Source: Amphibalanus amphitrite (Eukaryota; Arthropoda; Thecostraca; Balanomorpha; Balanidae). From it: a stretch of 64,000 bases of DNA. The notes below the pieces were generated by a model that was not told the origin of the DNA, ran no database searches, and saw only the letters and a list, made by a program, of their open reading frames with translations. Below, in pieces: positions 3,084 through 35,600 of this stretch. Each line of letters starts with the position of its first letter. Positions within the stretch are counted from its first letter, which is position 1. The stretch is from the NCBI RefSeq assembly GCF_019059575.1, contig NW_024881693.1, positions 372,001 through 436,000 of the forward strand, written 5' to 3'. Made by a program: the position numbers and the translations under genes.

Positions 3084-4439
3084 ATGGCTCCTACCATGCA
3101 TAAGTTCGATTATCTTGTTATTGGTGGAGGGTCTGGTGGCATTGCCAGTGCAAGAAGAGCTGCTGAATTTGGTGTGAAAGTTGGATTGATTGAAAATTCA
3201 GCTCTTGGAGGAACATGTGTGAATGTTGGATGCGTGCCAAAGAAGATCATGTTCAATGCTGCTATGCATGCAGAGGCACTACAGTACCATAAGGACTTTG
3301 GGTTTGATGTTGCTCCAGCACCCTTCAACTGGGCAGAGGTGAAGAAAAAGAGGGATGCGTACATTCAAAAGCTGAATGGCATTTATGAAAACAACCTGAA
3401 CAACTCCAAGGTGGAGATAATCAGAGGAAAAGCCATGTTTGTTGGTGAGAAAACTGTGGAAGTCAATGGTCAGACCTACTTTGGGGAACATGTGCTGATT
3501 GCCACTGGAGGCAGGCCATCAGATCCAGGTGCCCCAGGAGCTGAATATGGAATCAACAGTGATGGGTTCTTTGAGCTGGAGCACCTACCTAAGCGAAGTT
3601 TTGTAGTCGGTGCTGGCTATATTGCAATTGAGATGGCCGGCATCCTCAAAACCCTTGGCTCGGATGTCACCTTGATGATCCGACACGAAAAGGTCCTGAG
3701 AACATTTGACAGCCTGATCAGTGATGTCATCACAGATGAGCTGGAGCACATCGGCATCAACATGCTGAAGAACGATGGCTTTGTCAGAGCAACCAAGGAT
3801 GACCAGGGCACGCTCACTGTCACCACCAAGAATGGACACAGCATCTCGGGAGTGGACTGTCTGCTGTTCGCCATCGGACGTGACCCGAACGTGGAGCTGG
3901 ACCTGGACAAGACCGGCGTCACCCTGGAGAAGGGTCACATCAAGGTGGACGCCTTCCAGAACACCTCGGCACCGGGCGTGTACGCGCTGGGCGACGTGTG
4001 CGGCCGCGCGCTGCTCACCCCCGTGGCGATCGCCGCCGGCCGCCGCCTGGCGCACCGGCTGTTCGACGGCAAGACGGATCTGAAGCTCGACTACAACAAC
4101 ATCCCGTCTGTGGTGTTCTCGCACCCGCCGAGCGGCTCGGTCGGGCTGACTGAGCGCGAGGCGCGCGACAAGTTCGGCGACGCGGCCGTGCGCGTGTACC
4201 GCAGCTCGTTCGCCCCACTCTACTACGCGCTGAGCGAGCGCAAGGTGAAGACGCACATGAAGCTGGTGTGCGCCGGCGACGAGCAGCGCGTGGTTGGCCT
4301 GCACATGGTCGGCCAGGCCGTGGACGAGATGCTGCAGGGCTTCGCCGTGGCGGTGAAGATGGGCGCCACCAAGGCGCAGTTCGACGACTGCGTGGCGATC
4401 CACCCGACCTCGGCCGAGGAGCTGGTCACCATGCGCTGA
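3084..4439 (+). CDS. GSR: Glutathione reductase (NADPH), intronless
   Basis: Flavoprotein disulfide reductase that regenerates GSH from GSSG with NADPH. From Met at 3084 it is 451 aa. It has the FAD-binding GGGSGG (residues 14-19), the redox disulfide C45-VNVG-C50, the NADPH-binding GAG (about 176-178), the MIRH/KVLR residues that read the NADPH phosphate, the second FAD motif ALGDVCGR, and a C-terminal [12 protein letters not shown] with the catalytic His-Glu pair. There is no Gly-Cys-Sec/Cys-Gly tail, so it is not thioredoxin reductase. The frame is open back to 2919 with no intron anywhere. The 3084 start was chosen because homology begins there; the residues just before it (RQFTRKFAS) look like a mitochondrial leader and may be used. 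Third codon positions are AT-leaning up to about 3840 and almost all G/C after that. Confidence 0.93.
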
Positions 4440-4891: not shown

Positions 4892-7035
4892 TGTGTACCC
4901 GACAAATTACAAGAATGCTATTTTGGTTTGTCAGGCAATTGCATGCCATAATCAATCAAATATGCGAAAATGACCAGTACTATAATAACCCCGTAAACCC
5001 CCCAGTACTATAATATCCGCTTGGCGCTTATTTGTGAACAACTCGTGATCATTCAGTACCCTGCAGCAAGATCAGCATTTCATCAGTCTGTCTCTTGCTA
5101 ACTTATACGCGTGTGAGTTTGGCTTAAACTATCTGTAAGAATCTTGGCTTAGACCGCGCCCGTGCATTGCGTTGAAACCATGTTGAAACCAGGGGTTGAA
5201 ACCACCAGTTTTACGCAAAAAAAAGCTGAGCTGAATCAAAATGTATTGCATTGAAACTTGAAAGTGACGATAAAAGGACGGGATTCGTCGAAATCAAGCA
5301 TTAGGCCGAAAGGTCAAGTGTATCGCAGGTTCCTTTACTATGATAGGTCTTCGGGGGGGGGGGAGTAGTCTTCCCATCGGCTCTAGAAATAGAAAATACA
5401 TGAAAACCTAGAAAATAGCAGCAATTTAAATGAGACATGTATAACGCATTTGTTTCATTAAACATATTCATAGATGCTAAAAGCAGTTAACGAAGGATGA
5501 CTCAGGAATCGATGATTGGCTAACTGACATGTGAAAGCACGAACTTTCACATTGTCAGCTTGTTATTGAACATAAAGTTGTTACTTTTACCCAATTTGTC
5601 GTCAACAACTGCAACCTAGGTTATATTATGGCCTTGAACCTAGATAACATATTGATGTTCCTGGTTGATATTACAGTCAAGATACCTATAAGAAACCTAT
5701 AAGATACCTATAAGATTACAGTTGGAATTCAATTGAACTTTAAGTCTTGCAAGACTCTGACAAGGTAAGGATTTGGATTGCACCAGATTGCACTTGGTCG
5801 AATCTTGATCTTGGCAGGGTACCTAAGGCTAGATATGGATTTCGAAGGTGGACGTTCGGGGGAGCCGCGAGCCGGCAGGTTAATAATAGTGAGCACGTAT
5901 TTTGAGACTGCAGAACAAGTTGTGGCACTTTTTGATAATATTGTTCCAAATTCTTGGAGGTTGTTGATTATTATATTCTGTAGGCAGTAGTTTTTAAACA
6001 TGTGGGTAATTCAGATTTCAGGAATGCACACTGCTGTAATTGCAAAATATGCCCCGCGTCCACCTCTCAGGAGTGGTCAACATCTTGAAGGATCATCTGT
6101 TCTGAGTTCTGATGCTGATGTATCTAAGAAAAATATTACTGGAGAAATAACTAGAACAATTTGCTTGAGGTTTTCTTCTCCTGGTTGAGTGGTGGCTACT
6201 GGGTGGTGGGTGCTACTGAGGTACCTAGGTAATAAGGTCAAGCTTATCCATGCAATAGGAGGAAATCACCCAAATCACCCACAGATGCTAGAAGTATGAG
6301 TAGTGAGTACCTACCTATATCAATCTGAAGTAGGTAGCTCTTACCTGGGTACCTACCTACCTTTTTAAAACTACCTGGCAGATGTTGACTTGTGTCATGC
6401 ATTGCATAGTGCAATCACTGGATCAGGTTAATAATAATTGACAGCCTACCTCAGCAATGAACGGAAAATGAGGTGTGCCTACCAATTATCATATTGATAT
6501 AGATGGCGCGGTTTAGTGTTAGTTGTCACCCAGTCCAGTAGTCACTAGTCAGTACCAAGCAACAGCCAGTGGCAGTACCTATCTAAGCATTCAGCACTGC
6601 ATCACAGCCAATGCATACCTTGCATGCTCTTATGTTAAGCAATTTTTATTGCAGAGTCTTCCTTTTCTGATTTTGCTCTGCAAGGATTATATCAAGTGCT
6701 GTTGAGCTAGTTTGAGTTGCCTCATGCCTGATCCTCTAATAAACCTGGACCTGCACTTATCTGAGGCTGCTTCCTCCAGATAGCATAAAGGTTTTGTCTG
6801 ATACAAAGCCTCAGATGTTTTGAACAGATTGGCTGATGAGGCTCTGGGCAGCACTGTGTAATATTGGTGGTGTCTGCTTCCAACTCCTGCAACCACTGCT
6901 ACCGTGCTTCAGATACATTGAGGTCAGAGTCCAGTCCTGTGAGATACAGGCATTCTCAGGCATCATGCTGCAGGCTAATGGATGGGTGAATAACACCTCT
7001 CAGGGCGAGCTGCATTCCTATGGTTGCTTTGGTCT
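4892..7035. other. Intergenic, small repeats only
   Basis: No supported gene. It holds short direct repeats: GTTGAAACCA-like at about 5172-5205, CCTATAAGA at about 5685-5716, and TACC(T)-rich stretches at about 6220-6370. It also has a G run at about 5347. Confidence 0.5.
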
Positions 7036-9972: not shown

Positions 9973-10610
9973 GTGAGTACGTTTATTTGGTTCTGTGTCA
10001 CAATTTACTTACCTTGGGGGTCCTGGGATTGAGCTGTAGGGTGTGATCTGTCACATAGTTCACTGGCTGCAAGGCTAAATAGCCACTCCAAATCAAAATA
10101 GAATCTAGTCTGTTATGAAGTTGAAATGTTGTTTGACCCAAATATATGTTTGCCCAACATACCTACTACACTTGTAGGTCACGCATAGCATTGGAGCATC
10201 TCCTGTTGCACTTGCTTAGAGTAATGACTTCCGTGCAATAGCATTTGTGTGGCACCAGATATGCCGTGAAATGCTGAGGAACGTGTTTAGAAACCTGTTA
10301 CGGTGCTGTGCGGCGGATGAGCTCCAATGACACCGGATCCGGTTTGGAGTGTCGGGCGAGCCTCTCGCTGGTGAACCTTGAACCCGGGAGGGGGAGGGGG
10401 AGGGGTAGTAATCTGTCTCTGTGCGGGGCAGTGGCGACCGGCCACAGTCGTAATGGGAGCGATTGGGGTTGTTGTCGGTCAGAACTCGGAGCACTGGAGT
10501 CGAGATTCAGATGAGAACTGCCAGTAGCCAAACTCTGACACTGATAATAGAGTGTAGTTATCCCACTGATATCTAGTAGAGTTGGATGACGCTTGGATCG
10601 ACATTGGGCA

Positions 10611-10899
10611 CAGGGCTGCGGAGTCGGAGTCGGAGTCGGAGTCGGAGTCGGTCGGAGTCGACAGTTGTGACCGGAGTCGGAGTCGGAGTCGATTTTAGAA
10701 ACCCGAGCCGGAGTCGGAGTCGGAGTCACCGAAAATCTGTCGACTCCGCAGCCCTGCTAGGTCTGCGGAGTCGGAGTCGGGAGTTGGAGTCGGTCGGAGT
10801 CGACAATTCTGCCCAGAGTCGGAGTCGGAGTCGGAGCTGGTTTTTGAAAGCCGGAGTCGGAGTCGGAGTCGCCGAAAATCCATCGACTCCGCAGCCCTG
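10611..10899. mobile_element. hAT-like MITE built of GGAGTC hexamers, with 8-bp target duplication
   Basis: It starts CAGGGCTGCGGAGTCGG and ends with the inverted CGACTCCGCAGCCCTG. The 8 bp ATTGGGCA occurs immediately before (10603-10610) and after (10900-10907), a perfect target-site duplication. CAGGG ends and 8-bp duplications are hAT hallmarks. The interior is mostly tandem GGAGTC, with a second pair of ends inside (CGACTCCGCAGCCCTG at 10741-10756, then CTGCGGAGTCGG), so it is a dimer of two units of about 145 bp. It lies in the predicted CROT intron 1. Confidence 0.88.
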
Positions 10900-12350: not shown

Positions 12351-13535
12351 TAGGCTGACAATGATGTGTTGATAATGTAACCTACCTTTATGATTATCAA
12401 CACAGGAGATACGTCCCCACTCAAATGGAACGCCGGACTTGAAGGGGTCCATCAGCAACAAGCCCTGCTTAGCTGGTGGGCCCTAGAAAGTCTGGCTGTT
12501 GACCTGCGCTCGAATTGACCAGAAATGTTTCCCCACTGGATTGCCATTTGCTGATTTTTCTTCTAGGAGTGAAAGGCTGAATGCACTCTACTAACCAATT
12601 ATGTATGCATGTATGAATGACTTCTTTCTTAGATGTAGTAGAACAGTCATCTGCTGCTTTCAGCAATGACTACTTTGGCTCTCTTTATTTATTAACCGGT
12701 TCCCGCACTTCTTTTGCTTACTTTGTTTTTTTTTTTCAATTTTCCTAGCTGGGAGTGCCGCGACTTATCCTTTTTTATTTTTGTCTGGTGTTAACGTAAG
12801 GTGCTGTGAGTCGCTGGGCTGAGGGTGGGGGCACTCCTGGTCACCTAATAATGGGTGGCGGAGTAGTTCGAAAATTTAAAAAAAAAAAGTATGACAAGTC
12901 ACATGGTCTTTTTTTACTGATCGATCTTGTACTGTTTACCCTTCTCATTGTTTACGAGAAAAAAGCATGACTTGCGAAAACTTGGAGATCATACATATAC
13001 GTATATGCGATGTCCCTCCTAAGTGCCCTGGCCCATCTGTGATCGCATGGGACACTGCTCGAGTAAGGTTGTGGTGGCCTCGACTTTTTGAAGCCCTTTA
13101 ACGTCGGCATAGCAACAAGCTTGACACTCATCTACTTATCCTTCCGCTTTGTTACGATCCATCATTTCAATCATCGCATGACTCCCTGTCTGCTGACGTA
13201 TGCATTTCCTGGCGGGTGGAGGAAACCCAACAACCGCAGTCTGGTTGAGTTAATGTTTTCTAAAGTGACTAACACCGCTGAAACGTTGGGTCCAGGTTTA
13301 GAGTGTCGGCATGTCTAACGTCGAGTGAGGGCTATTGTACCAAAGTCTCTGGCATGTCTAATGATGCACCCAGCGTTTCAGGCCCAGCCTGGGCTGATCG
13401 TTTTTATGTGTGTTGGATAACCATATTTACGTATGTTCAAAATTGTGACCTAAATAAGGCATTTTTTATAATATGCAATGTTTGCACTGTTCTGCCTGCT
13501 CCTTCCTACTTCAGACGTGGTACGGTCTAACTCAA
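12351..13535. other. Intron sequence without recognisable features
   Basis: No coding similarity, only homopolymer T runs at about 12720-12740 and A runs at about 12880. It is part of the predicted first intron of CROT. Confidence 0.4.
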
Positions 13536-13760
13536 TACCCCTTCCTACGTCACACCTGTTACGGCCACAGTGTAACACAGTACCCCTTGTTACGTCAGAT
13601 CTGGTACGGCCACTCGGTCTGCCAGTACCCCTTCCTACGTCACACCTGGTATGGCTTCTCTGTCTGACAGTACCCCTTCCTACGTCACACCTGCTACGGC
13701 CACAGTGTAACACAGTACCCCTTGTTACGTCAGACCTGGTGCGGCCACTCGGAGGACGCC
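13536..13760 (+). repeat. Five 45-bp tandem repeats ending at the CROT start codon
   Basis: Units start with TACCCCTT at 13536, 13581, 13626, 13671 and 13716. Each is 45 bp, and the fifth ends at 13760, directly before the ATG at 13761. Units carry a T/C-rich stretch followed by TACGTCAC or TACGTCAG, and in units 2 and 5 this gives an acceptor-like CAG (13732-13733 in unit 5). The array therefore repeats the region holding the likely 3' splice site and 5' leader of the first coding exon. Confidence 0.9.
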
Positions 13761-16700
13761 ATGAAGCCGCAGGAGCGTCTTGCCGAGAAGACGTTCGTCT
13801 CGGAGACAGAGCGGACCTTTCAGCACGACGACCACCTGCCCAGCCTGCCGATACCCAACCTGCGCCAGACGCTAGACAAGTGAGTGAGGCGACGCACTGT
13901 GTGATACAGCAAAATTTTCCTGATGCTTGCCTTACATTTCTTGGCTCGCATTGTTCTTCTTAGCACTCAGTGAAATCGATGATTTGAGTGTTCGTCGTAC
14001 GCATTGTTTTTGTCTTGCAGAACGTCTCACATTTGTCTCTGCTGCTACTTGCTTCAAGTTTGCTGTGTTGTGTGTAACTTTTCGATAAGATCTGCCAAAT
14101 GCCTTGACTCTTGAGCGGTACTGTCTATGTTTCCATCCCGGTCGTCCTGTGATATGTCTGATATGACAGACATAGCGTGACATTGAAGGACACGTGGGGA
14201 ACGGTTTCAGAAGCTCCGAGGAACTGCGAGTGGCTTGAAATCTGCATTGCTTTGCGCCTAAAGGCTTTCTGGATAGGCAGTTGTTGTAATTAGAACATAT
14301 AACTTTGTTTTTGTTTACTGATTTGAAATGATTGAAGTCCGGTGAACTGTTGAACTATGGCCCGTCACTGGACCATATTGTATCTCGTTTGTTTGTGACA
14401 GGTACCTCCAGTCAGTGTACCCGGTGGCCAGCAGTCGCGAGTATGAGAACACGCGCCGCATCGTGGAACAGTTCGAGAAGGGAATCGGTCGTCAGCTGCA
14501 CGACCAGCTGCTCGAGAGGAACAAACACACACGGAACTGGGTAAGGAAGGAACAGACACACACGCAACTGGGTAAACAGAGAACAGACACACACGGAACT
14601 GGGTAAATAGAGAACAGACACACACGGAACTGGGTAAGGAAGGAACAAACACACGTACGAGAAACTGGGTAAGGGAGGAACGGAACTATATTGTGAGAGA
14701 AATTACGACGCGGGAGACTATGTGAGAGAGAAACGAACATGCTTAAATATTTAAGGAAGAAGCAAACGCAGTCCATCTCGTTCTTCCCTAGCTCTCCCTC
14801 CATCTCCGCTCTCCCCATTTACTTGAACATTTGAGAAAGAAGCAAACGCAGTCCATCTCGTTCTTCCCTGGCTCTCCCTCCATCTCCGCTCTCCCCATGT
14901 GACCGTTTACTCACTCCATTCGCCCGTCCACAGCTGCAACACTGGTGGCTGGACTACGCGTACCTGTATCAGCGGGAGCCCATCGCGCCATCGCTGGCGT
15001 TCGCCGGACCCTTCACGCTCTCCGAGACGCTGTGGCCTCCCGGAGAGGGCACACAATGTCAGGTCGGTCAGCGACGGTCACCGTATAAATGGCGTTATTC
15101 TGGGTATGAGACGTCCGGTCTCGCAGTGGTGTTTTTATCGTAGTATAGTATGTAAGTTGGGTGATGAAAGATGGATCCAGTTTTTCCCTTTACGTATGGC
15201 CAATGGCCGCCTGGATTCTCTAAAAATAACGAGGCCCGGGTTAGACTCAGCAATCAACACTCGGAGGGAAGCAGTGCTTGTTGTGATACCTATTATGAAA
15301 CATGGTCAGGACTATTTATAATTGATTGCGGTTGAATTTACACAGCTTTACTGTGTTACGGCATATTGACGTAGTGAGATGGTTTCGTCACAAATCGTTG
15401 CATGAATCTTGCACAATCGGGTTATAGATGAAGTTGTGTGAATACCGTCTGTGATTTGTATTAATCCAGTCCCGCCCCGCTCGGCCACCTCTGACCTCTG
15501 CGCGCTCCCCTCCCCAGTACCTGGCGCGGTACTTGTACGGCGTCGCCTCGTTCTGGTGTCTGCTGCGCCGGGAGCGACTGGCCCCGCACCGCTCACGGGA
15601 CGGCACGGCGCTGAGCATGCACCAATGGCGCCGACTGCTGAGCACCACCCGCCTGCCGGGCGAGCACAAGGACGCCATCCGGGCCATGTTTCAGACCGGT
15701 TAGTGTGGTGGAATAGGGGGGGGGGATGCCGGGGATGGCTGGTTAACTCTGGTCACTTATATACAGGGTTGGAACCGAGGGGGCTGTGTAAGGGATACTA
15801 GAACTTGGCATTGAATAAGGCTTAGATTTCGCCGGTTGTGGACTAGGTTTATACTTTCCCCATTCCTAAGATGTAGTGGTTATCCGTCTTGAACATAGTC
15901 TGAGGGCTGCATCTCGATTCTCGACCCACCTTGTAATTGTCTGTAACGGCCAGCTTTGTACCCTTGTTACAAAGTCTGAGGGCTGATTATGTGTCCCTCT
16001 GTTCAGAGTATGAGGGCTGCACCCCGACCCACCTGGTAATCCTGTGTCTGTAACGGCCGGCTGTGTCCCTCTGTTACAGAGTCTGAGGGCTGCACCCCGA
16101 CCCACCTGGTAATTCTCTGTAACGGCCGACTGTACACCTCTCCCCTGCTGGAGCCGGAGACGGAGCGTCCGCTCACCATTGAGGAGTATCAGACGATCCT
16201 GGAGCGTGTGAAGGAGATGGCCGCCGCCGAGCCGGGGCCCGGACTGGCCGCCCTCACCATGGACAACAGGACCAGATGGGCGGAGGTGGGTGGAAACGGA
16301 CAGACTGAGGAGTGAGGATAGGGGTAGCGAGTGGGCGATAGACAGGCCCCAGACCCAGGCTCAGTGTGAGAGTCGTAAGAAAGGAGTAGACATTTCGGGC
16401 TTAAATCGTATTTTGAGACGTCCAAAACAAGCAGTATTTTTGTGGGGGATATTTATATTGTTGATTACAAACTTCAGGAGCAGGAACTGTTGCGTCGATA
16501 TCGCTGAAGGAGCATCTCAAGGTGCTTGATATGTTCAGAGATGTGGTTTATGGCACACGTCTTTCGACTAGATTATGCAGTGCTCGACTTTTCATTCAAC
16601 CTTCAGCATCTAACTAGGATATTTCCACCTTCCCCTTCCCCGCCCGCCCCCAGAATCGCGAGTACCTGCGCAGTCTGAGCCCGGAGAACGCTGCCTCCCT

Positions 16701-19700
16701 GGAGGTGGTCGAGTCGGCCGTCTGCCACGCCTCTCTCGAGTCGGTACCGGGTCTGAACCGAGACCGCACGCTCCGTCTGAACCTCTGCGGCGACGGATCC
16801 AGTCGCTGGGCCGACAAGAGTCTGACCGCGGTGGCCTACACGGACGGCTATGGCGGAAACTACTGTGATGTGAGTGATGAGTCAGGGGGTTACCTAGATG
16901 TTAATGGGGGTGAGAGACGGGCGGATGGTGGGTTGTGATTCAGTGAGGAATTCAAAGAAGTGGAGTGGTGTTTTGAATGAGGTGGGCTGGTTTAATCGGG
17001 AACGGTTCGTGTTAGAGTTACCACAGTTATCGTTATGGTTGTGTTGTTGCTCTGTAATTTTATTGTGCTTTTTCCTTTGAGAGTTATGCGAATCTGATGA
17101 ATTCATGTTCGAATGTCCCGTAAGTAAGGCTGACTTAAACGTCCGACTTGTGCCGATCGTTCGATTCTGTCTTTTTCTAGTATCTGGGCTGTACCCCCCC
17201 CCCCCCTCCATCACTCCCATCCCTGACTCTTGCCTCCCCTTTCTCTCTCCCTCAGCACTCTCCGATGGACGCCATGACGCTGGTCACCCAGGGCTGGTTC
17301 AGTCACCTGCAGGAGCTCGACTTTAACCGCTACGGACGGCTGGTGGCGCCCGTCCGCGAGCACCTCTGTCAGCCGCGCGAGCTGCGCTTCACCGTGGACG
17401 AGCGCATCAGGAGGGACATTCTGGTGGCGCGGGACATCAGCCGGCCGCTGGTGAGTGAGGAGAGAGGAGGGAGGAAAGGGGGTGGTATTTTGGGAGGGAA
17501 GAGCATGTGAGAGCGGGAGCCTGTCTTGAGAGTCGGCGTGGTTTTGATGAGTGAAAGGGGAGGGGGCGAAGCCGGAAGGCAGTCCATATCTTGTTGTTGA
17601 CTGGGAACTGGGAGGAAGGGAATGTTGTCGGTCTTTTTATATCGTCAGAGTGAAGCCATGCTCTTCAAAATAACCAACTGGCAAGCTTTCAAAATAGCCA
17701 AATGATATTGCTACCTGCTACCATCATCTTTTGATAGCCGGCTGACCCTTACCCCACCTTCTCAATTCTCATCACATCTGCCCCTATGACCTGTTCCGTC
17801 CTCTGCCTCAGCTGAACGACGTGATTATCATCAGTCGTCGGTACGGCCGGTACGGGAAGCTGTGGATCCAGACGGAGGGATTCCACCCGGACGCCTTTAT
17901 ACAGATGGCGCTGCAGCTGGCCTACTGGAGTCTGCACGGACGGTAAGAGGAAGGGAGAGTGGAGGCTAGGAGAGGGGGAGGAGAGGAGAGGACGTGAAGT
18001 TGATAGGAAGCATTTTTAATGTTGAGAATTATACTGTTGCCAGTGCTTTTTTATACAAGCACTGACGTGTCATATGGATTCAGAACTAATCAGAACTTCA
18101 ACTTGGTATGGGCAACCAATGTGCCTGATGCCACCCAACTCAGCTAGCAATCTCAAGTAGCCCTACTCTCTAGTCACTTCAGAATTATGTACCCTAAAGA
18201 CATTCGCGTCTAACCCGCCTCCCCTCCGCCCCCTCAGCGCGGCACCGACCTACGAGACGGCTGCCACCCGCCGCTTCTACAAGGCGCGCACAGAGACGGT
18301 CCGCTCCTGTACGCCCGAGGCGCTGGCCTGGTGCCGGGCCATGACCTCCGACTCGGCTGTGGTGAGTGACGCGCTGGTTAGGGAGAAGGACGGTTACATG
18401 GGAGGGAGGGAGAGAGTGTAGGGGTGGGGGGGGGGAGCAGGCGCGTAACCACCACTGGGGACACTGGGGACCGGTCCCCAGTAACTTTTAGGTTACTGGG
18501 GACCGTCCCCAGTAAAACCGAAGACCTCCTTAATTTGCTGCCAACTATTGTCTCTAAATCGACGTGAAGAGTAATATGTAGGTAGTAAAAAAGACAAAAC
18601 TATGGATATTTTGTTTAGCCAGCGCCCGGGTGGGCCTCTCGGCCAACTTCGCCATGGTGGGGGGAGGGGGGGAGGGGGGGCTTTTTGGACGCACCAGATT
18701 ATCTCGGAAAGTAAGCAAGCTAGAAAGACGCGGTAAAAGGCAACATATAGCTCGCTACAGTGTCTTTCAGAATTGCTTCTGTCAATTTTAATCGGCTCAG
18801 CGATGAGGTCACTGGAGGTCACCAAAGGTAAAATTTTCACGAACGTTTGTTGCCAATTTTGACAACTTTTCACAAATCGGCGCATAAGTCAGGAACCGAT
18901 AGAGCTGCATTGCTGCGGGAAAGCGCATTCGATAGCTCTTTTGAATGCCTTTCTGATTAATGTTCTCAGATTTGACCTAAGGTCAACGGTTTAGCTTCCA
19001 GGTTGGCGTTTTTGCGGAAAAGGTTTTTGGATCATAACTTTTGACTCAAAACTTGTATGACGCTGATTTTACCGGCATCGCGTTTGTCACGTCGAGACGC
19101 GTCGAATGAATTATAAATTTACCTGAAAAGGTCAACATGAAAATTTGACCCCTGGTCAAGGTCACGGAAAAGGTCATGTTGCATGTCATTCGATTGGTGT
19201 TGTTGAGCTGAACCCATTCATGGTGTTTTAAGGGCTCTAGCATGTTTCTACCTAAAGTTATAATTAAAAACTGTTGCAGATGTTTCATGACCTGGAGATG
19301 ACCTCAGGGGCATAGAAGGGGTCACAAGGGGCAATTTTCCGGTTCAGTGTTTACCTGTGTCACGGTGTTTGAATGTGTTTTCGGCCAAAAGAAGAGCATT
19401 TCAATTTTTCCCAATGACTTATAACGAAGAGGTCTCAAAATTGACCTGACATTAGGTCACCGATGTGAAAATTTTGAGACGATTGTTCATACTGATTTGT
19501 TCATTTCCTCATGCAAAAGTTTGAGTTTCAAACTTCTGGGATGTAAACTGTAGGAATGACAGTCACAAAGTTTTCTAGAGGCATGGCTACTTTACTTGAC
19601 CTGGTGACCTCACCTTATAGGTGACCGGCGGTCGAAATTTTCACACACGATGCGAAATTGAGGTATCATAGGCTATACCTACTAAGTTTCGCGACGGTGC

Positions 19701-21257
19701 GCGCCGCGGCTTTCCTTACACGCCCAACAAAAAAAAAAAAAAACTGGCAGGTGTGGCTAAAAACGCCCCCCCCCCACCCACCCTCTGCCCCCCCCCCACC
19801 CCACTCGGACCAAGGCTGATCCTGAAATATAATATTTGGTCTTCGCGGCCCTCCATGTGGTCCCAAGTAACTTCAAACTCGTGGTTACGCGCCTGGGGGG
19901 GAGGGCGAGGCGTGATTTGAGTGTTGGTGAGTTGACTGGAAGAAATGCAACGCCTGCCAAGAATCTTTTAAGTCTTGTGAATGAGGAACTTTCCAGGAGG
20001 AGTTTTAAGGAGTGGAGTTTTTAGCGTTTTAAATTGCATAATGATATCACAGGCACCGGATCATGCCATTCTCACCCACCCTGTGTCATGTCCCAGCTTC
20101 TTTCTCAATGCTCCCACTAGGCATATTAAGCCGGACACCTTCCACCCGTCTTCCCCAGGCGGCGGACCGTCGTCGTCTGCTGCGTGCCGCCGTGGACCGG
20201 CACGCCGACCTGGCTAAGCAGGCCTCGGACGGACACGACTGTGACAGACACCTGATGGGGCTGCAGATTCTGGCCGGGGAGGCCGGCCTGCCCACGCCGG
20301 ACATCTTCACAGACCCCATGTGGAAGAAGAGGTGGGCGATGTGGGAGGTGTAGGATGTGATGAACGGGAGGGAGATGAGTGTTACGTATAATGCGGCCAG
20401 CTTTTTGTACCTAATGAAAAGTATTGTATCGTTAACATTTATGGTAATATCGTGACCTGTATTCAATATTGAAGTGGACTGCAGCCCAGGTGTGCATGGT
20501 TAAATGCAAAGGTCATATTTTAGCTTTTTACCACAAGATCTGAAGTTCCATATTCAAACCCCATATCGTCATGACCTGTTCGTTATTGAGCCCACCACTC
20601 GCTTGCTTGCAGCGGCGGCAGCGGCAACTTTGTGCTCTCAACCAGCACCACTGGCTACACGCCGTGTTTCGGTGTGACGGCCGCCATGGTACGGGACGGC
20701 TACGGCTGCTTCTACTCGATCGAGCCGGACCGGTGAGATGAGGGAAACTGGGAGAGGCGGGGAATATAGAGGGACTGGGTACTGGGTACTGGGTAGTGAG
20801 GTGGGCCAATGTACGGGACGGCTACGGCTGCTTCTACTCGATCGAGCCGGACCGGTGAGACAAAGAGGGTGGGGAGGTGGAAAGGTGGAGGGATGGGTCA
20901 GGGAGGTGGAGAGATGCGTGCTAAGGAGCTGGGGAAATGGTTGTGACATTCGTGGCATTCCGTGGATATGGAATCTGCCAGAGGGTCGGTCACTTGATGT
21001 ACATGTCGCTTTTATTAGGAGAAGGGCAGAATAGATACGCATCAACCGGAAAACTTCCGTTTCGATTTGTAAGTTCAGTCGATTTCATTGGTGTGGATTG
21101 TCTTTTCATCTGAAATCGTCTCGTCTACTCTAGGCTCAACATCAACATCTCGGGCTTCGTGAGCAGCCAGGAGTGCGACGTCAACAAGTTCTACGACTCG
21201 GTGGCCTCCAGCCTGGACGGCATGCAGCAGCTGATGCTGTCCCGCAGTAACCTCTGA
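13761..21257 (+). CDS. CROT: Peroxisomal carnitine O-octanoyltransferase, 12 coding exons
   Basis: It transfers medium-chain acyl groups from CoA to carnitine so that shortened chains can leave the peroxisome. Exons: 13761-13879, 14402-14540, 14934-15062, 15518-15698, 16080-16285, 16654-16869, 17256-17450, 17812-17942, 18238-18361, 20159-20331, 20613-20732, 21134-21257. All joins keep frame with GT-AG borders and give 618 aa (human CROT is 612). It starts MKPQERLAEKTFVSETERTFQ and has LPSLPIPNL, NW..WWLDYAYL, FAGP and WPPGEGTQ. The segment GLAALTMDNRTRWAENREYL separates CROT from carnitine acetyltransferase and ChAT. The catalytic His (CD-HSPMDAM) is residue 331, the first codon of exon 7. 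TETVRSCT and SGGSGNFVLSTS follow. The C-terminus is SNL, close to but not a canonical PTS1. Most introns are short; the long ones hold transposons. Confidence 0.93.
14541..14675 (+). repeat. Five-fold ladder of the exon 2 splice donor
   Basis: The exon 2 end ACACACGGAACTGG plus donor GTAAGG is repeated in the intron with a period of about 31 bp. GT dinucleotides in the same context lie at 14541 (used here), 14572, 14603, 14634 and 14669, followed by AAGG, AAAC, AAAT, AAGG and AAGGG. Confidence 0.9.
14757..14898 (+). repeat. 80-bp-period duplication of the intron 2 pyrimidine-rich tail
   Basis: 14757-14818 recurs at 14837-14898 with one mismatch. The unit contains the C/T-rich tract that precedes the exon 3 acceptor (AG at 14932-14933). 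Confidence 0.9.
15898..16079 (+). repeat. Degenerate copies of the exon 5 acceptor and exon start
   Basis: The true exon 5 start (AGTCTGAGGGCTGCACCCC from 16080, acceptor CTCTGTTACAG) is preceded by copies at about 15898, 15973 and 16007. The copy at 16007 is nearly complete. It has CTCTGTTCAG (AG at 16005-16006), then a one-base variant of the exon start, ACCCACCTGGTAAT and TGTAACGGCCGGCTG. It is a ready-made alternative acceptor and pseudo-exon start, though its frame and later sequence differ. Confidence 0.88.
18438..19895. mobile_element. Half-site-rich element, copy 2, in CROT intron 9
   Basis: CAGGCGCGTAACCAC at 18438-18452 returns as its exact reverse complement at 19881-19895. Just inside the left end is a 14-bp hairpin (18472-18485 with 18492-18505). 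The interior, about 18780-19660, is clearly related in the same orientation to 7190-8110. Shared stretches include AGATTTGACCTAA.GTCAACGG, GCATAA.TC.GGAACC.ATAGAGCT and CATTCGATAGC. It holds 13 exact AGGTCA/TGACCT hexamers. The outer ends differ from copy 1, so either the core lies in two different carriers or one copy is nested. Confidence 0.75.
20811..20860 (+). repeat. Exact 50-bp duplication of the exon 11 end with its donor
   Basis: 20689-20738 (last 44 nt of exon 11, donor GTGAGA) recurs exactly at 20811-20860, 122 bp downstream, so an identical donor stands at 20855. No acceptor-like sequence directly precedes the copy. Confidence 0.93.
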
Positions 21258-22989
21258 GGTCCTCCCGGGACGCTCAACGTCAGTGCACAACGCCGAGGTG
21301 GGAGAACCGAGCTGAACAGTTGTCCGACTTGCCTGGACGTGGAAAGTGCCCAATGTCTACCGGAGACGCTGGCGGAAATAGGTAGATATGCGAGGATCGA
21401 TCACGGTTTACAGGGTTGTGGACGGAGTTTTATGCGGATGCCGATACCCGCAACAATCGGAATGTCAGCTAATGAATGACTTGAATGTCATGTTTCAGAG
21501 CTCGATAAACAATGCAAGATTGTAGATGACTTGACTCATTTGTGTTCATATTATGCTCTGTTTGTATTAGAATATTGAACTTGTTCTTAGCAAAATGCTG
21601 TTCATCCGGGACTTTTAGTTAATTGCCTGTGTACTTGAGTTTATTCTTTTTCGTCGCGTATCGCTGTATAGGTTCTTCGTTCTGGCTTAGCGCTTCAATC
21701 TTGACCCGAGGCATGTTTATCAACACGTTTTAACAAAGAGGTTTTAACCGTTGGACAGCAGCCTTAGGTGTTGGATCGTTCGCGCAAAATTCATACTGTC
21801 TACGTTTTTATGGGTGCCAACAAACAACCCGGAGATTCGAAATAAAATGGAATATGATAGCCGCGGGTTGAGCACGCCTGGTCATTCTAAATGCAAGGGA
21901 TATGCGTTGCTGCAAAATAATATGCTGGATTCAATTATAATATGTATATCATTCCCTAGCAATGAGCTGTGGCAGCGTTACAAATGCAATGTTTACTCGT
22001 TTATCCTCTTGCCACTTCTTGATGTTTCTTCAATGCAATGTTTGATGCAGATTCGTAGTAATAGTTCATTCAGAGCTTGCCGTTGTAATAACGCGTTCCT
22101 TTTTCTACACATTCCTGTTGATCAGAGTCGCAATGGTTGGAGCTTCGAAAGAAGGGTATTGTATGGCATAGCTGTTGGGGTGTGTGGCGAGCAGAGCCGC
22201 TGCGAGGGAAGTATTCATCGTTTGAGCTTGCTGAGTTTGGCATAGGACTGCGCGGTGTGCTGTGTAAGTTCTGTGCCGGAAAGTGCCTGTACCCACTGCC
22301 GGTAGCCTGATGAAGGGAGGGAACAGGTTAGAGTACCGTATTTCGTCAACTCTTTCACCTATCGCGCTGGCTGTTGTGCTCAGTGGCTGAGATTGTGCTC
22401 GAGGTCTCTCTAGCAGCCACTTGCACATTAGAAAGCTGCAGACCGGAAGGTTTTGTGATGCAGTGTAGCGTGGATTTCCTCACACCCTGGTTATATTTGT
22501 GCAATCACTGTATTTCTACCGTATTACACGGTACCGCTCTGTTCAGAGCCGTATCCAATAACGGCGGCTGTGGCTGGATTTGGCCGGATTGTTACACAGC
22601 GAGTGTAGGAACGGAGCCGAGAGACAAAATGTTCACCTGTCAGCGGTGATTGTATATGGAAAATACTGGCCTCGGACGCTGGTCGCCAACGCCGAGAGAT
22701 GCGACGTGTGGTGTCCGGTCATGTCTATTTGAAAGTCGTGTCAAATATACGGTAAGAGATCAGACGTGTGTTCTGGCTATCTGAAGTCGCAATGTGGGAA
22801 GTGACGTTAAGAGTAGCTCGCTGTTGTGCTATAGGTACTGGCAGATAATCACACGCGATTTGACGTACGACAATCGACTCTGATGCATTAAAAACCATAC
22901 AAAGTGTAGACATTCAACATACGATTTCATCATAATTGTTTCAGACAAATTACACAACCACCAATCGTGACCAGAGAAATACAAAATGA
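21258..22989. other. CROT 3' UTR and intergenic spacer
   Basis: AATAAA at 21841-21846 is the first clear polyadenylation signal after the CROT stop. Beyond it no gene or repeat could be supported. Confidence 0.4.
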
Positions 22990-29664: not shown

Positions 29665-32600
29665 ATGGCTTTTGTGTGCGCAAGTAAGTGCATATTTCAA
29701 TATATTCTATCCAGTAATTGGTAAATTATATCGTCATGTTTTCGCGAGAATAAATACGGATTCCTCTGCGTCATGATTGTCTCTTTTTGTTTCAGCATAG
29801 AATATTGATATGCTGATTGATTTGGGTAATTCGATTTTAAAGTGATATTTTGATCGGCTTCATGTAATTTTTCGCGTATTTTATTTATCATTTATTTTAC
29901 CCTCCATATTTTATATTTAAATTGCATCATTATGTCGTAATTTATGCCTATTGTCCACGTCCATCCCTTAGCACGTTTGATTGAAGTCTGAAAGGTATAA
30001 TAGAAAGATATAAGTATAATAGAAAGGTATTAGTAAGCCTGGCATCCCAGGTTGATGGCAGATTGGGATGGCAGAGATATACAGAAAAAAAACTAACCTG
30101 ACCTGACCAAACCTTACCTACAACTGAACCTACCCTACAAACCTACAGCCTAGTTACAACAATATCTGGCATCTTCCTGGGATGCCAGGCTTACTTATAC
30201 CATCTGAAATATTTCTGGGCATTTTATACCAGGCATCTCACATGCTGTCACCTGTTTGTGGAAAGTCGTTAAACTCTAGTTCTTGAGATTGAGATATTTA
30301 CACGAATTTTGTTGTTGGTTGCACATTGGTAGTTGTAGGTTGTAGATTGGTAGGTTGTAGGTTAGTAGGTAAGGTTAGTTCAAGTTAGATCAAATATGTT
30401 TTGCCCTGTAAGACCATTTGTTGAGTGACTTTGTTAAGTAAAATTTGTGTAAATATCTCTAGTCTAGCGACTTTTCACAGATGGGTGGCAGCAGTCTCGC
30501 TATAAGAATACCTATTTATCTATAAGCTTACCCTACCAATTTTTTTCCTTAGACTAGTCTTACCAACAGAAGAATGATCAGCTGCAGTTATTTTTGCCCT
30601 TATTTGCATTAAATTTCACCAGCTGTGCACAAGAAAATAACCACTGATATATCAGTGAATAACAGCCTACTTGATATGTTTCAGTACCTAATTAATTTGT
30701 AATGCTTGGCTGGTTAAGCTTATGGGGAGCTTTTGGAAATGAAAACACCAATGTCCAACAGCCAATGATATTTGGCTGTTTCACTGTTGCTATATTCCAG
30801 TGTTAATCAGTCACTATTTATGTTTTTCTTTGAATGCACACTCTTACCCAGTAAACATGCCGACGTCGGCCCGACGTCGGCCGACGTCGGGGTGACGTCG
30901 GCAACTCGGCATCGGCATGCCGACGTCGGTCCAACCTCGGCACGACGTCGGCTGGATGTCGGATATGCCCGCATGTTCCGACGTCCAGCCGAGGTCCAGC
31001 CGACGTCGGGCCGACGTCGGACCGAGATCAATTGCTGAGGTCCAGCCGACGTCGGGCCGACGTCGGACCGACATCGGCCGCTGTTTTGACCGTTAAAATA
31101 ATATAAAATACATGTTTCATGTTTCATCAAGAGCTCCTGTATTCAAAATATCCTCAGGAAACTCAAATCTTCCTCCACGCCGCAACCCCCTGATCCGAAC
31201 TGGACGGGAAACTTTATCCCATTTGGGATTGCCCGTAAGCCGAGCTCGCCCGTAGCCGGGTGCGGTGAGCGCTTGGGGGCTGCTCGGCCTATCCTTTGGT
31301 CAGGCTCAGACCCGGCTACTCACCAGGGCGGGGCCCAGTTCATATAGAAAGGCCAGTCGGCAAGTGTCACTTTGCCAAAGTGCCACTAATCAAAGGGACA
31401 CTTTGGGAAACGTTGGTGCAGGTGTGTAAGAGTGGCTATATGAATCCATTGTGGGGTCACCCTTTCCAATAAGTGTCACATAACAGCAATGGGACCAGGG
31501 ACTCTATATGAACTGGACCCAGGGTGCTCGCCAAGAAGACCAATATCTCCATCCTATCATCCTTCCGGCTCTGAAATGGTCTTGTCAGACCGAAAGGGCA
31601 TAACCCAACAAAACAAACTAAGTTCGTTATCTGGCTGCGTGGTGTAGTGGTTAGCGCACTAACCTCGCGTTCAAATGACACGTGGTTCGAATCCCATCGC
31701 CGGATGATGCTTTTGGCGTGTTGTCCCAGTAAACATGCCGACGTCGGCGACTGGGGGGCTCGAATCCCGCCGCCGGTTGATATTTTTGGCGCGTTGTCCC
31801 AATAAACATGCCGACGTCGGCCCCGTCGGTCCAACGACAAACGATCTCGTCAACCTTGTTGTTGTTGTTGTTGTTCGTCCTCTCGGCGTCTAGCGACGCG
31901 AAGCCTCGCGGCTTAGCATCCCTCTGCGCGCGGCCGCCATGGCCGCGATGTAACTTGTGCTCCTTGCAGTTTCTCTGGTTGGGGCGTGTATGCTTCCCGT
32001 CAGGCGGAACCGAAGCCCCATCTGCGCTGGGCACCGCAACAGAATGTGATCTGGGGTGTCGGCTTCCTCCTTACAGAGTGGGCAGAGGGCTCCGCCGCAT
32101 GCTCGTTCATTGCAGGCGTCGCACTGCCGTGTGGGGCTCTTGCCGATGCGATGCAGGTACTGTTGCGACCCTGACCAGTGTGCGGCTCTCAGCTGGTGGA
32201 CGTCGATAGCCGTCAGACGGTCCAGGCCAGACACTGTGGGTGGGCGCGTTGTCCCCATCAGGGTTCGGAACCAGCCTGGGGGTCGCTGCTCTCGTGTGCG
32301 AGCGTCCGCCGCTCGCGCCGCTGCTCTATGCACTGTGCGCGTGTCCACCGGTACCTGCTCTTGGGGGAGAGATGCCGCCTCCTTGGCTAGGCTGTCGGCC
32401 ATCTCATTCCCAGGCAGCCCGCAGTGGGACGGGACCCATTGAAGGCGCACCTGCCGCTCTCCATTGTCGGACACCAGGGCCAGAGCGTCCCAGACAGCTC
32501 GGTTCAGCTGCGTCCTTTGCTCGGCCGGGCCACTCCGTAGGGCAGATAGAGCTGCTTGCGAGTCGGTACACAGTATGATGGGGTCCTCCTCATGCTCAGT

Positions 32601-35600
32601 GTGGTTGCCGATGTAGTGTAGTGTCTCGCGGAGTGCCACCATCTCCGCTCGGTAACTCGAGCAGAGCTTGCCCGCTGGTGCGCGGAGCTCGTGGCTCTCC
32701 CCGTCGGGCCACTCGATATAGCTCTCGTCAACGACCTCGATATATATCTCGTCAACCTCGGCAAACGACCTCGGCCCGACGTCGGCTCGACGTCGGCTGG
32801 ACTTCGGATGGACGTCGGAACATGCGGGCATATCCGACGTCCAGCCGATGTCGGGCCGAGGTTGAACCGACGTTGGGCCGATGTCGGCATGTTTACTGGG
32901 TAGTTTGTTTGATATGATCAGTATTTTGGAAAGAAAATAATATGTGTAATATTATTAATCAAAAATAATAATTTGATGCCAATGCCAACTGTCAATAGCA
33001 TTTGACTTCTAGCTGTTAAAACTTCCTGCCAAAAACATTTCTTTTATTTCTGTGTTTCCACACTGCCTATATGACAACTCATCAGTTCTGTAATTAAAAA
33101 TTACCTGTATTAATATATTGTTGTGTGACTCAAATGTCTTTCATTAATTGCCTTTTCATGCATGTTTTACAGGCATGAAACATCATGATTCTAGGACACC
33201 CTTCATAGGCGTGTGCCCCCTCCCCCCCCCCCCGCCGCCCTATTTTCTCCCTCAATCAGTCTCTCACTCCATTAATGCTCACTCACAGTCAGTAACGAGG
33301 CGCCAGAACACCCGTGCGTCTCGCCCGTGTCTGGAGCCGTGTTCGAGCGCCGCCTCATCGAGAAATACATCACCGATAATGGCGTCGATCCGGTGGCCAA
33401 CAAACCGCTCTCGGCAGACGACCTCATCGATATCAAAGGTAACTGACGATGACAATGACAGCATTTGTCGCTGGTGGCATGAACCGCCGGTAGTGTGCCC
33501 GTCATTAGGGAATGGTTTTCAGGCAAAACCATTGCTGTATTGTTGTCTATTTGGCTGCTTCAATATTTGGCCTATTTTGTTCTTCAGTTACGACGAGTCG
33601 AATATGGGTGAGTCCTCGTGATTTGAATGAGTTAACGTGATTCCTTGATTGCTTTTTGTTAGCAAGCATAAAACATCCGACTCTTATAGGCATATTAGCT
33701 GGCTACCCATCTAAGGTCTAACTGCATCCCCACCTTTCCGCAGTGTCGGCGCTGGTGAAGCCCAAGGCGCCGTCGGCCACCAGTATCCCGGCCATCCTCA
33801 AGTCGCTGCAGGACGAGTGGGACGCCGTGATGCTGCACAGCTTCACACTGCGGCAGCAGCTGCAGACCGCCCGTCAGGAGCTCAGTCACGCGCTCTACCA
33901 GCACGACGCCGCCTGCCGCGTCATCGCGCGCCTCACCAAGGAGGTGACTGCCGCCCGCGAGGCGCTGGCCACGCTCAAACCGCAGGCGGGCGTGCCGTCA
34001 GCGGCGGCCGCCGCGGCGGCGGTGGGCGCGCACACACCCCAGCCGGCGGCGGCTGTCGACACGGCCGCCAAGCCCGAGCAGGCGCAGCCGGAGGCCGGCA
34101 TGACGGCCGAGGTCATCAAGCAGCTGCAGGACAAGGCCACGGTCCTGACGCAGGAGCGGAAGAAGCGCGGCAAGACGGTGCCAGAGGACCTGGTGACGCC
34201 GGAGACCCTGCGCAGCTACAGGACAGTCAGCAGCAACCCGGTCAGTGGCGGGGAGAGGGTGATATGGAGGAAGGATGATAATGTTGGATGGATTGCTTAG
34301 AATCATCTGCTACGTTAAACACTATAAATTAAAGGTCGTGTTTAAACGTGTGCTTTGCGCCGTGGTCTGTCCTGTCATTTCGCCGTTTATCGTCGCCACC
34401 ATATTACCCTAAACATATTTTACCCCGTATCATTCGACTTTTCTTGTTTCACTAACCCCTACCCTATCCTCACACCAACAGGGTCTGCACAGTGCCTCTG
34501 TGCCGGGTATCCTGTCTTTGGACGTGCACCAGGAGGACACCAGCAAGATTGTCACGGCCGGCAGCGACCGCAACTGTACCGTCTTCAACAAGGACACCGA
34601 ACAGGTGGTCTGCATCCTCAAGGGTCACACCAAGAAGGTCACAAAGGTCATCTACCATCCGGAGGAGGTACGAGGGAGTCGCCGAGAGTGGAACTGGCTT
34701 TGGGGAGGCTTTTGGTTTGGCAAGGAATGGTCAGAATGTGGTCTTCGATAAACAGATGTTAATGAAATAAATTTGAACGATTTTACGACCAAATATGCAA
34801 ACAATCATAGTGCGATCCATTTCTGTCCTCTGTTTACAGATAATGTAGTTCCTAGTTCCCCAATATTTACGAGGCAGTCTTAGCACTGTCCGTTTATTTA
34901 TATTGTTACTGCCGCATACATTACGCTTACCGTTTACTCTACGCCTTGCTGTTGAGTCTTGAAGACTATCCTCCCTCGCTTATCACCACGTGCGGCTGCA
35001 CCTGCGGCTGCACCTGACCTGCTAACGCCTGCCGCTCCACAGGACACGGTGCTCAGCGCCTCCCCGGACGCCACGATCCGCGTGTGGAACGTGCCCACCT
35101 CCCAGACGGTGCAGCTGATCCGCGCCCACGACGGTCCCGTGACCGGTCTGTCACTGCACGCCACCGGCGACTACGTGCTCAGCTGCTCCAGCGACGAGAA
35201 CTGGGCCTTCACAGACGTGCGCACCGGCCGAGTGCTCACCAAGGTAAGTGGCAGAGATGGTAGACCAGAGGAAGAGGAGTTTTCCGGCGTCACTTGGTGG
35301 CCACTGGTGTGGGTGATGCTTGTCTGAATAGATTTAGTGTGAGTGGCTGAAAGGGGAGGGAATGTCCAGTTATCAGAATGCCGAGTTTTCGTGATGAGTG
35401 ATAAGGCTCGGGGTAATACGTACTGCATAGCGCAGATAGTTCAGCCAGTATACTGTAGCTAACTGTAGCCTCTCACTCAGTGGCACTCATCTGCGATTGG
35501 AACTAACCGGTGACCTGTGTCTTACCTTCAGTTCTGACCAGTTCCCCGCGCCCTCACCCACGCCTCCGTCCCTACAGGTGGCTGACAACAGCTCCAGCGG

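Follow-up and report, generated by a model that had tools for sequence, protein, structure and literature searches.

In the human CBS gene the variant c.844_845ins68 duplicates an intron/exon junction, and the distal, exon-proximal site is reported to be favoured, so that normal mRNA is made (PMC2630376). The same gene has a 31-bp variable number tandem repeat (VNTR) at exon 13/intron 13, a tandem array lying over the exon end (PMC5188458). In potato, a tandem duplication across an intron-exon boundary of an RNA-dependent RNA polymerase (RdRp) gene, including the 3' splice site, created an intron; the paper also summarises Rogers-type intron gain, in which an AGGT tandem duplication adds splice sites (PMC4974935). 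Here we describe repeats of a related kind in the gene CROT of Amphibalanus amphitrite, which lies in a stretch of 64,000 nucleotides (the window; contig C196, NW_024881693.1, positions 372001-436000) of a genome of 807.55 Mb in 2,644 contigs. Random local duplication, combined with tolerance by splicing, probably explains the repeats at the exon borders of this gene.

What CROT shares with CBS c.844_845ins68 is a border of intron and exon that has been duplicated locally; the human case is a single event, a polymorphism backed by RNA, whereas in CROT several borders are affected, with up to five copies in the DNA. The CBS VNTR is close in unit length to the array at the second CROT donor (31 bp, about five copies) and likewise lies over an exon end, and CBS also carries a second border duplication, just as CROT has several. 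The VNTR, however, is described as non-coding and variable in copy number among people, while CROT is one assembly copy. The potato duplication added an intron as well as exon sequence that had not been there before, whereas the CROT protein has no inserted residues at the three duplicated borders when compared with the solved structure 1xmc_A. Rogers-type gain, as summarised there, resembles CROT in that extra splice sites come from tandem duplication, but the duplicated segment is exonic, and in CROT it straddles an existing border. The CROT border arrays are best read, by sequence and by analogy, as putative duplications of the CBS ins68 type that are tolerated by splicing. A search of the open-licence PMC literature found no paper in which tandem duplications of a comparable genome are enriched at exon borders.

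Joining 12 coding exons with GT/AG borders gives an open frame of 618 amino acids, whose top match among solved structures is 1xmc_A (E 1.1e-149, residues 14-612), a peroxisomal carnitine O-octanoyltransferase; judged by this sequence match, the gene holding the border repeats is CROT. There are 22 junctions in its coding span, which measures about 7.5 kb, and the exon predictor that we used reproduces every border of this directly read model except the 5' start. CROT is present in one copy in the assembly, whereas many other genes that were looked up stand on two contigs, as uncollapsed haplotypes. A DNA search for dispersed copies with window 13536-14536 and 14500-16150 as queries (simple repeats skipped, the exon 11 copy not among the queries) matched only the CROT locus. 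In a self-blastn of 13000-21800 the local direct repeats fall into five clusters, and the duplications are seen directly by self-blastn, a repeat search and Tandem Repeats Finder (TRF). The features are:

13761..21257, + strand, CROT coding region with 12 coding exons (open frame, 1xmc_A match, exon predictor)
13761-13879, 14402-14540, 14934-15062, 15518-15698, 16080-16285, 16654-16869, + strand, CROT coding exons 1-6
17256-17450, 17812-17942, 18238-18361, 20159-20331, 20613-20732, 21134-21257, + strand, CROT coding exons 7-12
13491..13752, + strand, 45-bp tandem array in which a 25-bp core recurs about six times (self-blastn, repeat search, TRF)
14517..14684, + strand, 31-bp tandem array, about 5 copies, over the exon 2 donor between 14540 and 14541 (TRF, self-blastn)
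14742..14898, + strand, 80-bp pair of 93.5% identity within intron 2 (self-blastn, TRF)
15893..16141, + strand, three-copy array over the exon 5 acceptor between 16079 and 16080 (self-blastn, repeat search)
20683..20738, + strand, end of exon 11 with the donor between 20732 and 20733, first copy (self-blastn)
20805..20860, + strand, end of exon 11, second copy, within intron 11, exon end 20854 (self-blastn)

Array lengths range from 157 to 262 bp, and the copies are 80-96% identical. In three of the five a coding border lies within the array, namely donor 2, acceptor 5 or donor 11, with direct copies that hold the splice site plus intron and exon sequence and include 24, 62 and 50 coding bases, respectively; the other two lie in intron 2 and before the ATG. 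A sequence-only reading of this DNA had counted four duplicated borders, of which these three stand; the fourth, an acceptor at coding exon 1, drops out, as no upstream exon is proven. The 45-bp array stops 8 bp short of the ATG at 13761 and contains acceptor-like AGs (exon starts 13515, 13599 and 13734), and the exon predictor took 13734 as an acceptor. The array may represent a 5' leader or possibly an acceptor region, with the junction unproven. The duplication that the same reading placed in intron 2 was recovered by self-blastn and TRF; it ends 35 bp upstream of acceptor 3 and has no junction inside. The unit sizes of 45, 31 and 80 bp given by that reading were right, but at exon 5 there are three copies, offset by 72-73 and 103-110 bp, instead of a pair of about 77 bp, and the 122 bp given as the exon 11 unit is the offset of a 56-bp copy (96% identity). 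Because the flanks before and after this copy align at 55-60% only, it is not a head-to-tail unit of 122 bp. In the self-blastn no match between different arrays was found at E <= 1e-3, so the arrays are separate events, as had been proposed. TRF reports in addition a 47-bp array at 17946-17992, just within intron 8.

The copies differ in how well the splice sites are kept. In the 31-bp array the donor-like exon ends are 14540 (that of the model), 14571, 14602, 14633 and 14668, with scores of 2.9, -0.4, 1.0, 2.9 and 2.9. The exon 5 array has acceptor-like copies at 16007 (score 3.0) and 16080 (3.6, the site of the model), while the oldest-looking copy has lost its AG site at 15975 (-1.5). Both exon 11 donors, 20732 and 20854, score 4.5. 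The consequences for the reading frame can be followed directly in silico: translation from the alternative donors 14571, 14602, 14633, 14668 and 20854 and from the alternative acceptor 16007 runs into a premature stop in all six cases, and because of this the full CROT protein is obtained only from the exon-proximal copy.

We suggest that short local duplications, mostly head to tail and with units of tens to about 100 bases, arise along the genes of this animal. Selection would purge the ones confined to exons, whereas intronic or border-crossing ones would survive. A duplication that includes a border should leave one exon-proximal splice site in its former context; if the first donor copy or the last acceptor copy is used, the old mRNA would be made and the remaining copy would become intronic. 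Border duplications would survive because this one site keeps its old context. Which site the cell uses, whether slippage or templated repair made the copies, and that selection spares the exons are inferred from the sequence. Tolerance for splice-site redundancy, one of two explanations offered by the sequence-only reading, fits the six stops and the low coverage of exons elsewhere (0.6-0.7%, see below), where borders and introns do carry arrays. The extra sites could instead be functional decoys, kept because premature stops would lower CROT expression in some conditions via nonsense-mediated decay. Strong sites are indeed retained at 14633, 14668, 16007 and 20854, every tested site brings a stop, and the CBS VNTR is reported to cut CBS activity with rising copy number (PMC5188458). 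We nevertheless regard such a role as improbable, as stops would follow most random insertions of such lengths anyway, and as the site is lost in other copies of older arrays (15975 in CROT; position 3404 in gene piece L032, score -5.0), which is what neutral decay would give.

The sequence-only reading had further argued that duplications placed at random should land chiefly in introns. This is wrong for the present locus: with arrays as long as these (157-262 bp) and 22 junctions in about 7.5 kb, several border matches are expected. With free placement 2.44 of the five arrays are expected on a junction for the span 13200-21500 (P(>=3) 0.48) and 2.56 for the span 13491-21257 (P(>=3) 0.52). 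If the coding content of an array is limited to half or to 36%, the expectation for these spans is 1.45-2.00 (P(>=3) 0.15-0.31). Border targeting from CROT alone was rejected, as free placement already yields 2.4-2.6 of five. When exon overhangs of 60-150 bp are permitted, three of five arrays compare with 1.8-2.6 expected (P 0.23-0.53; self-blastn and TRF). By the same two programs the arrays cover 3 of 22 junctions (13.6%), 586 of 5,200 bases of intron interior (11.3%; 10.7% with self-blastn only) and 136 of 1,857 exon bases (7.3%).

For comparison we used 20 pieces (L and M numbers) that represent 18 other genes of this genome, obtained through Pfam hits for the families Cpn60_TCP1, Carn_acyltransf, Adaptin_N and SNF; only part of the matches to PF00118, PF00755, PF01602 and PF00209 was used, and PF00171 was left unused. 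Junctions were placed by homology and by a small exon predictor; checked on its own training genes, it places 189 of 196 homology junctions exactly. Two haplotype sets were formed, with 12 pieces common to both, where a single haplotype was used. Excluded before counting were junction pairs with out-of-range profile gaps, predicted exons with a score <6, introns >6,000 bases, and self-hits of low complexity or with copies >150 bp apart. In L052 the upstream copy had given a spurious mini-exon, which was taken out by hand. A first census by self-blastn only missed short periods near the main diagonal, e.g. a 47-bp pair in L042, and a second one combined self-blastn with TRF, the TRF arrays having no shuffle control. 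Local-composition shuffles, done for the 20 pieces and not for CROT, gave <=0.2 arrays per set. The null for array counts permits an exon overhang of 60-150 bp and its result depends on this overhang; the 60 bp are taken from the largest overhang seen in CROT, a choice that favours an excess.

The comparison of repeat units with splice junctions that the sequence-only reading had proposed for all genes gives, for the 18 genes, no enrichment in coverage. Counted directly with self-blastn and TRF, arrays of the first haplotype set cover 6 of 236 junctions (2.5%; 4 acceptors, 2 donors), 2,400 of 46,837 bases of intron interior (5.1%) and 158 of 25,847 exon bases (0.6%), and none of the arrays in its 20 pieces lies wholly within an exon. 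In the second set 6 of 230 junctions (2.6%), 1,422 of 44,692 interior bases (3.2%) and 189 of 25,481 exon bases (0.7%) are covered, with one array in an exon. The junction coverage is thus not above that of the intron interior in either set, and the census by self-blastn only agrees (1.7% versus 4.0%, and 2.2% versus 2.7% in the other set). The border-targeting mechanism, the other explanation of the sequence-only reading, therefore finds no support in coverage, and a weak excess by array count leaves it an unproven candidate; a weak bias to borders may exist.

Border-type duplication is not peculiar to CROT: adaptin and CCT genes have it too, and for two of the CCT genes it is present in both haplotypes. 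The clear cases outside CROT are all acceptors and come from four genes (L032, L042/L043, L044/L045 and L052). One CCT gene has four tandem acceptor copies in L044 (5832-6125) and three in L045 (6052-6270), its two haplotypes, the upstream copies having roughly the strength of the used site; in another the acceptor is present twice, in L042 and L043 alike. In the adaptin gene L052 an 81-bp unit that includes the acceptor stands twice, without any difference between the copies, and a second contig (L059) is identical there. In L032 the upstream acceptor copy is decayed. Weak donor cases are M134_1 (35.6 bits) and L057 (38 bp). The translated decoys in L044, L045 and L052 lead to stops; that of L032, whose site scores -5.0, meets no stop within the stretch read.

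These acceptor cases bear on the possibility that pyrimidine tracts, co-transcriptional splicing, R-loops or GC steps raise the rate of duplication at borders. Local duplications would then arise or persist preferentially at borders, chiefly at acceptors, and give copy-number-variable arrays of competing sites in housekeeping genes. Such a bias would agree with the weak excess of spanning arrays, with the four and three acceptor copies in L044 and L045, and with a 38-bp acceptor-like insertion in L041, in the intron that precedes the exon at 6052, which is absent from the haplotype L040. Against it, arrays in both haplotype sets cover junctions less than the intron interior or to a similar degree, the excess falls as the permitted exon overhang rises, and donors make up two of the three coding cases in CROT. 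Between haplotypes, 63 compared introns contain 45 indels of >=12 bp, of which only five are tandem-like (4 not of low complexity), too few for a test of bias. We consider preferential duplication at borders unlikely.

The haplotypes are also informative about assembly errors. As CROT is single-copy in the assembly, there is no second haplotype with which its arrays could be compared, and an artefact might be suspected. Its copies diverge, however (80-96% identity), unlike a simple assembly repeat, and similar arrays are found in separately assembled haplotypes (L042/L043, L044/L045, L052/L059), which makes an artefact very improbable.

Several results weigh against random duplication plus tolerance. 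The decoys at 14633, 14668 and 20854 match the used sites in strength, which simple tolerance would not need, and the decoy acceptors of L044 and L045 are likewise as strong as the used site. Outside CROT the array counts on junctions are 6 of 18 in the first set (3.8-4.5 expected, P 0.15-0.28) and 6 of 14 in the second (3.2-4.1 expected, P 0.07-0.19), and 4 of 8 and 5 of 8 in the census by self-blastn only (P 0.03-0.30). With CROT, the gene in which the pattern was discovered, added, P becomes 0.03-0.24 (self-blastn and TRF) or 0.008-0.22 (self-blastn only). If the CROT span is begun at 10300, 0.95-1.80 arrays are expected on a junction and P(>=3) is 0.049-0.25 (four of five, if the unproven 5' border is granted, has P 0.005-0.20 over the same placement settings). 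CROT also has more arrays per intron base (4 in 5.2 kb versus 6 in 46.8 kb). This excess in array density over the sampled genes has P 0.005 at 43 bits, CROT being the picked gene. The border count in CROT is mildly unusual only by choice of span and rules, and not under the plain null.

Beyond the gene itself, the window has a CGGAGT-rich array at 10612-10899, whose higher-order period is 143 bp and which precedes the CROT leader array by 2.6 kb; together with the CROT arrays it forms a long-period repeat cluster that extends over about 10.6-16.1 kb. At 43 bits five of the eight arrays of the window are in CROT and a sixth lies 2.6 kb upstream. Several short arrays at 30860-31077 and 32766-32887 have an 11-bp unit like CCGACGTCGGC. 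Among the other genes, one carnitine acyltransferase intron seems to measure about 5.1 kb at C8:633947-639009 and 47.5 kb at C391:462926-510445 in the other haplotype, the difference being a large insertion or a misassembly. L002 and L003 (C83, C181) encode a carnitine acyltransferase with profile positions 1-573 in one open frame of 693 amino acids, a stretch apparently intronless in two haplotypes. The third placed intron of L046/L047 differs very strongly in length between haplotypes (2465 versus 369 bases), and in L046 it contains a repeat array of 663 bp.

Should tolerance alone be acting, CROT would illustrate clearly why splice-border duplications survive, namely because they are nearly silent in the mRNA. 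If a preference for borders were true, the arrays would be natural tests of spliceosome choice among near-identical sites. Near-identical strong sites adjoin in CROT and in the CCT genes, with up to four acceptors that vary between haplotypes, and this makes them useful for the study of splice choice.

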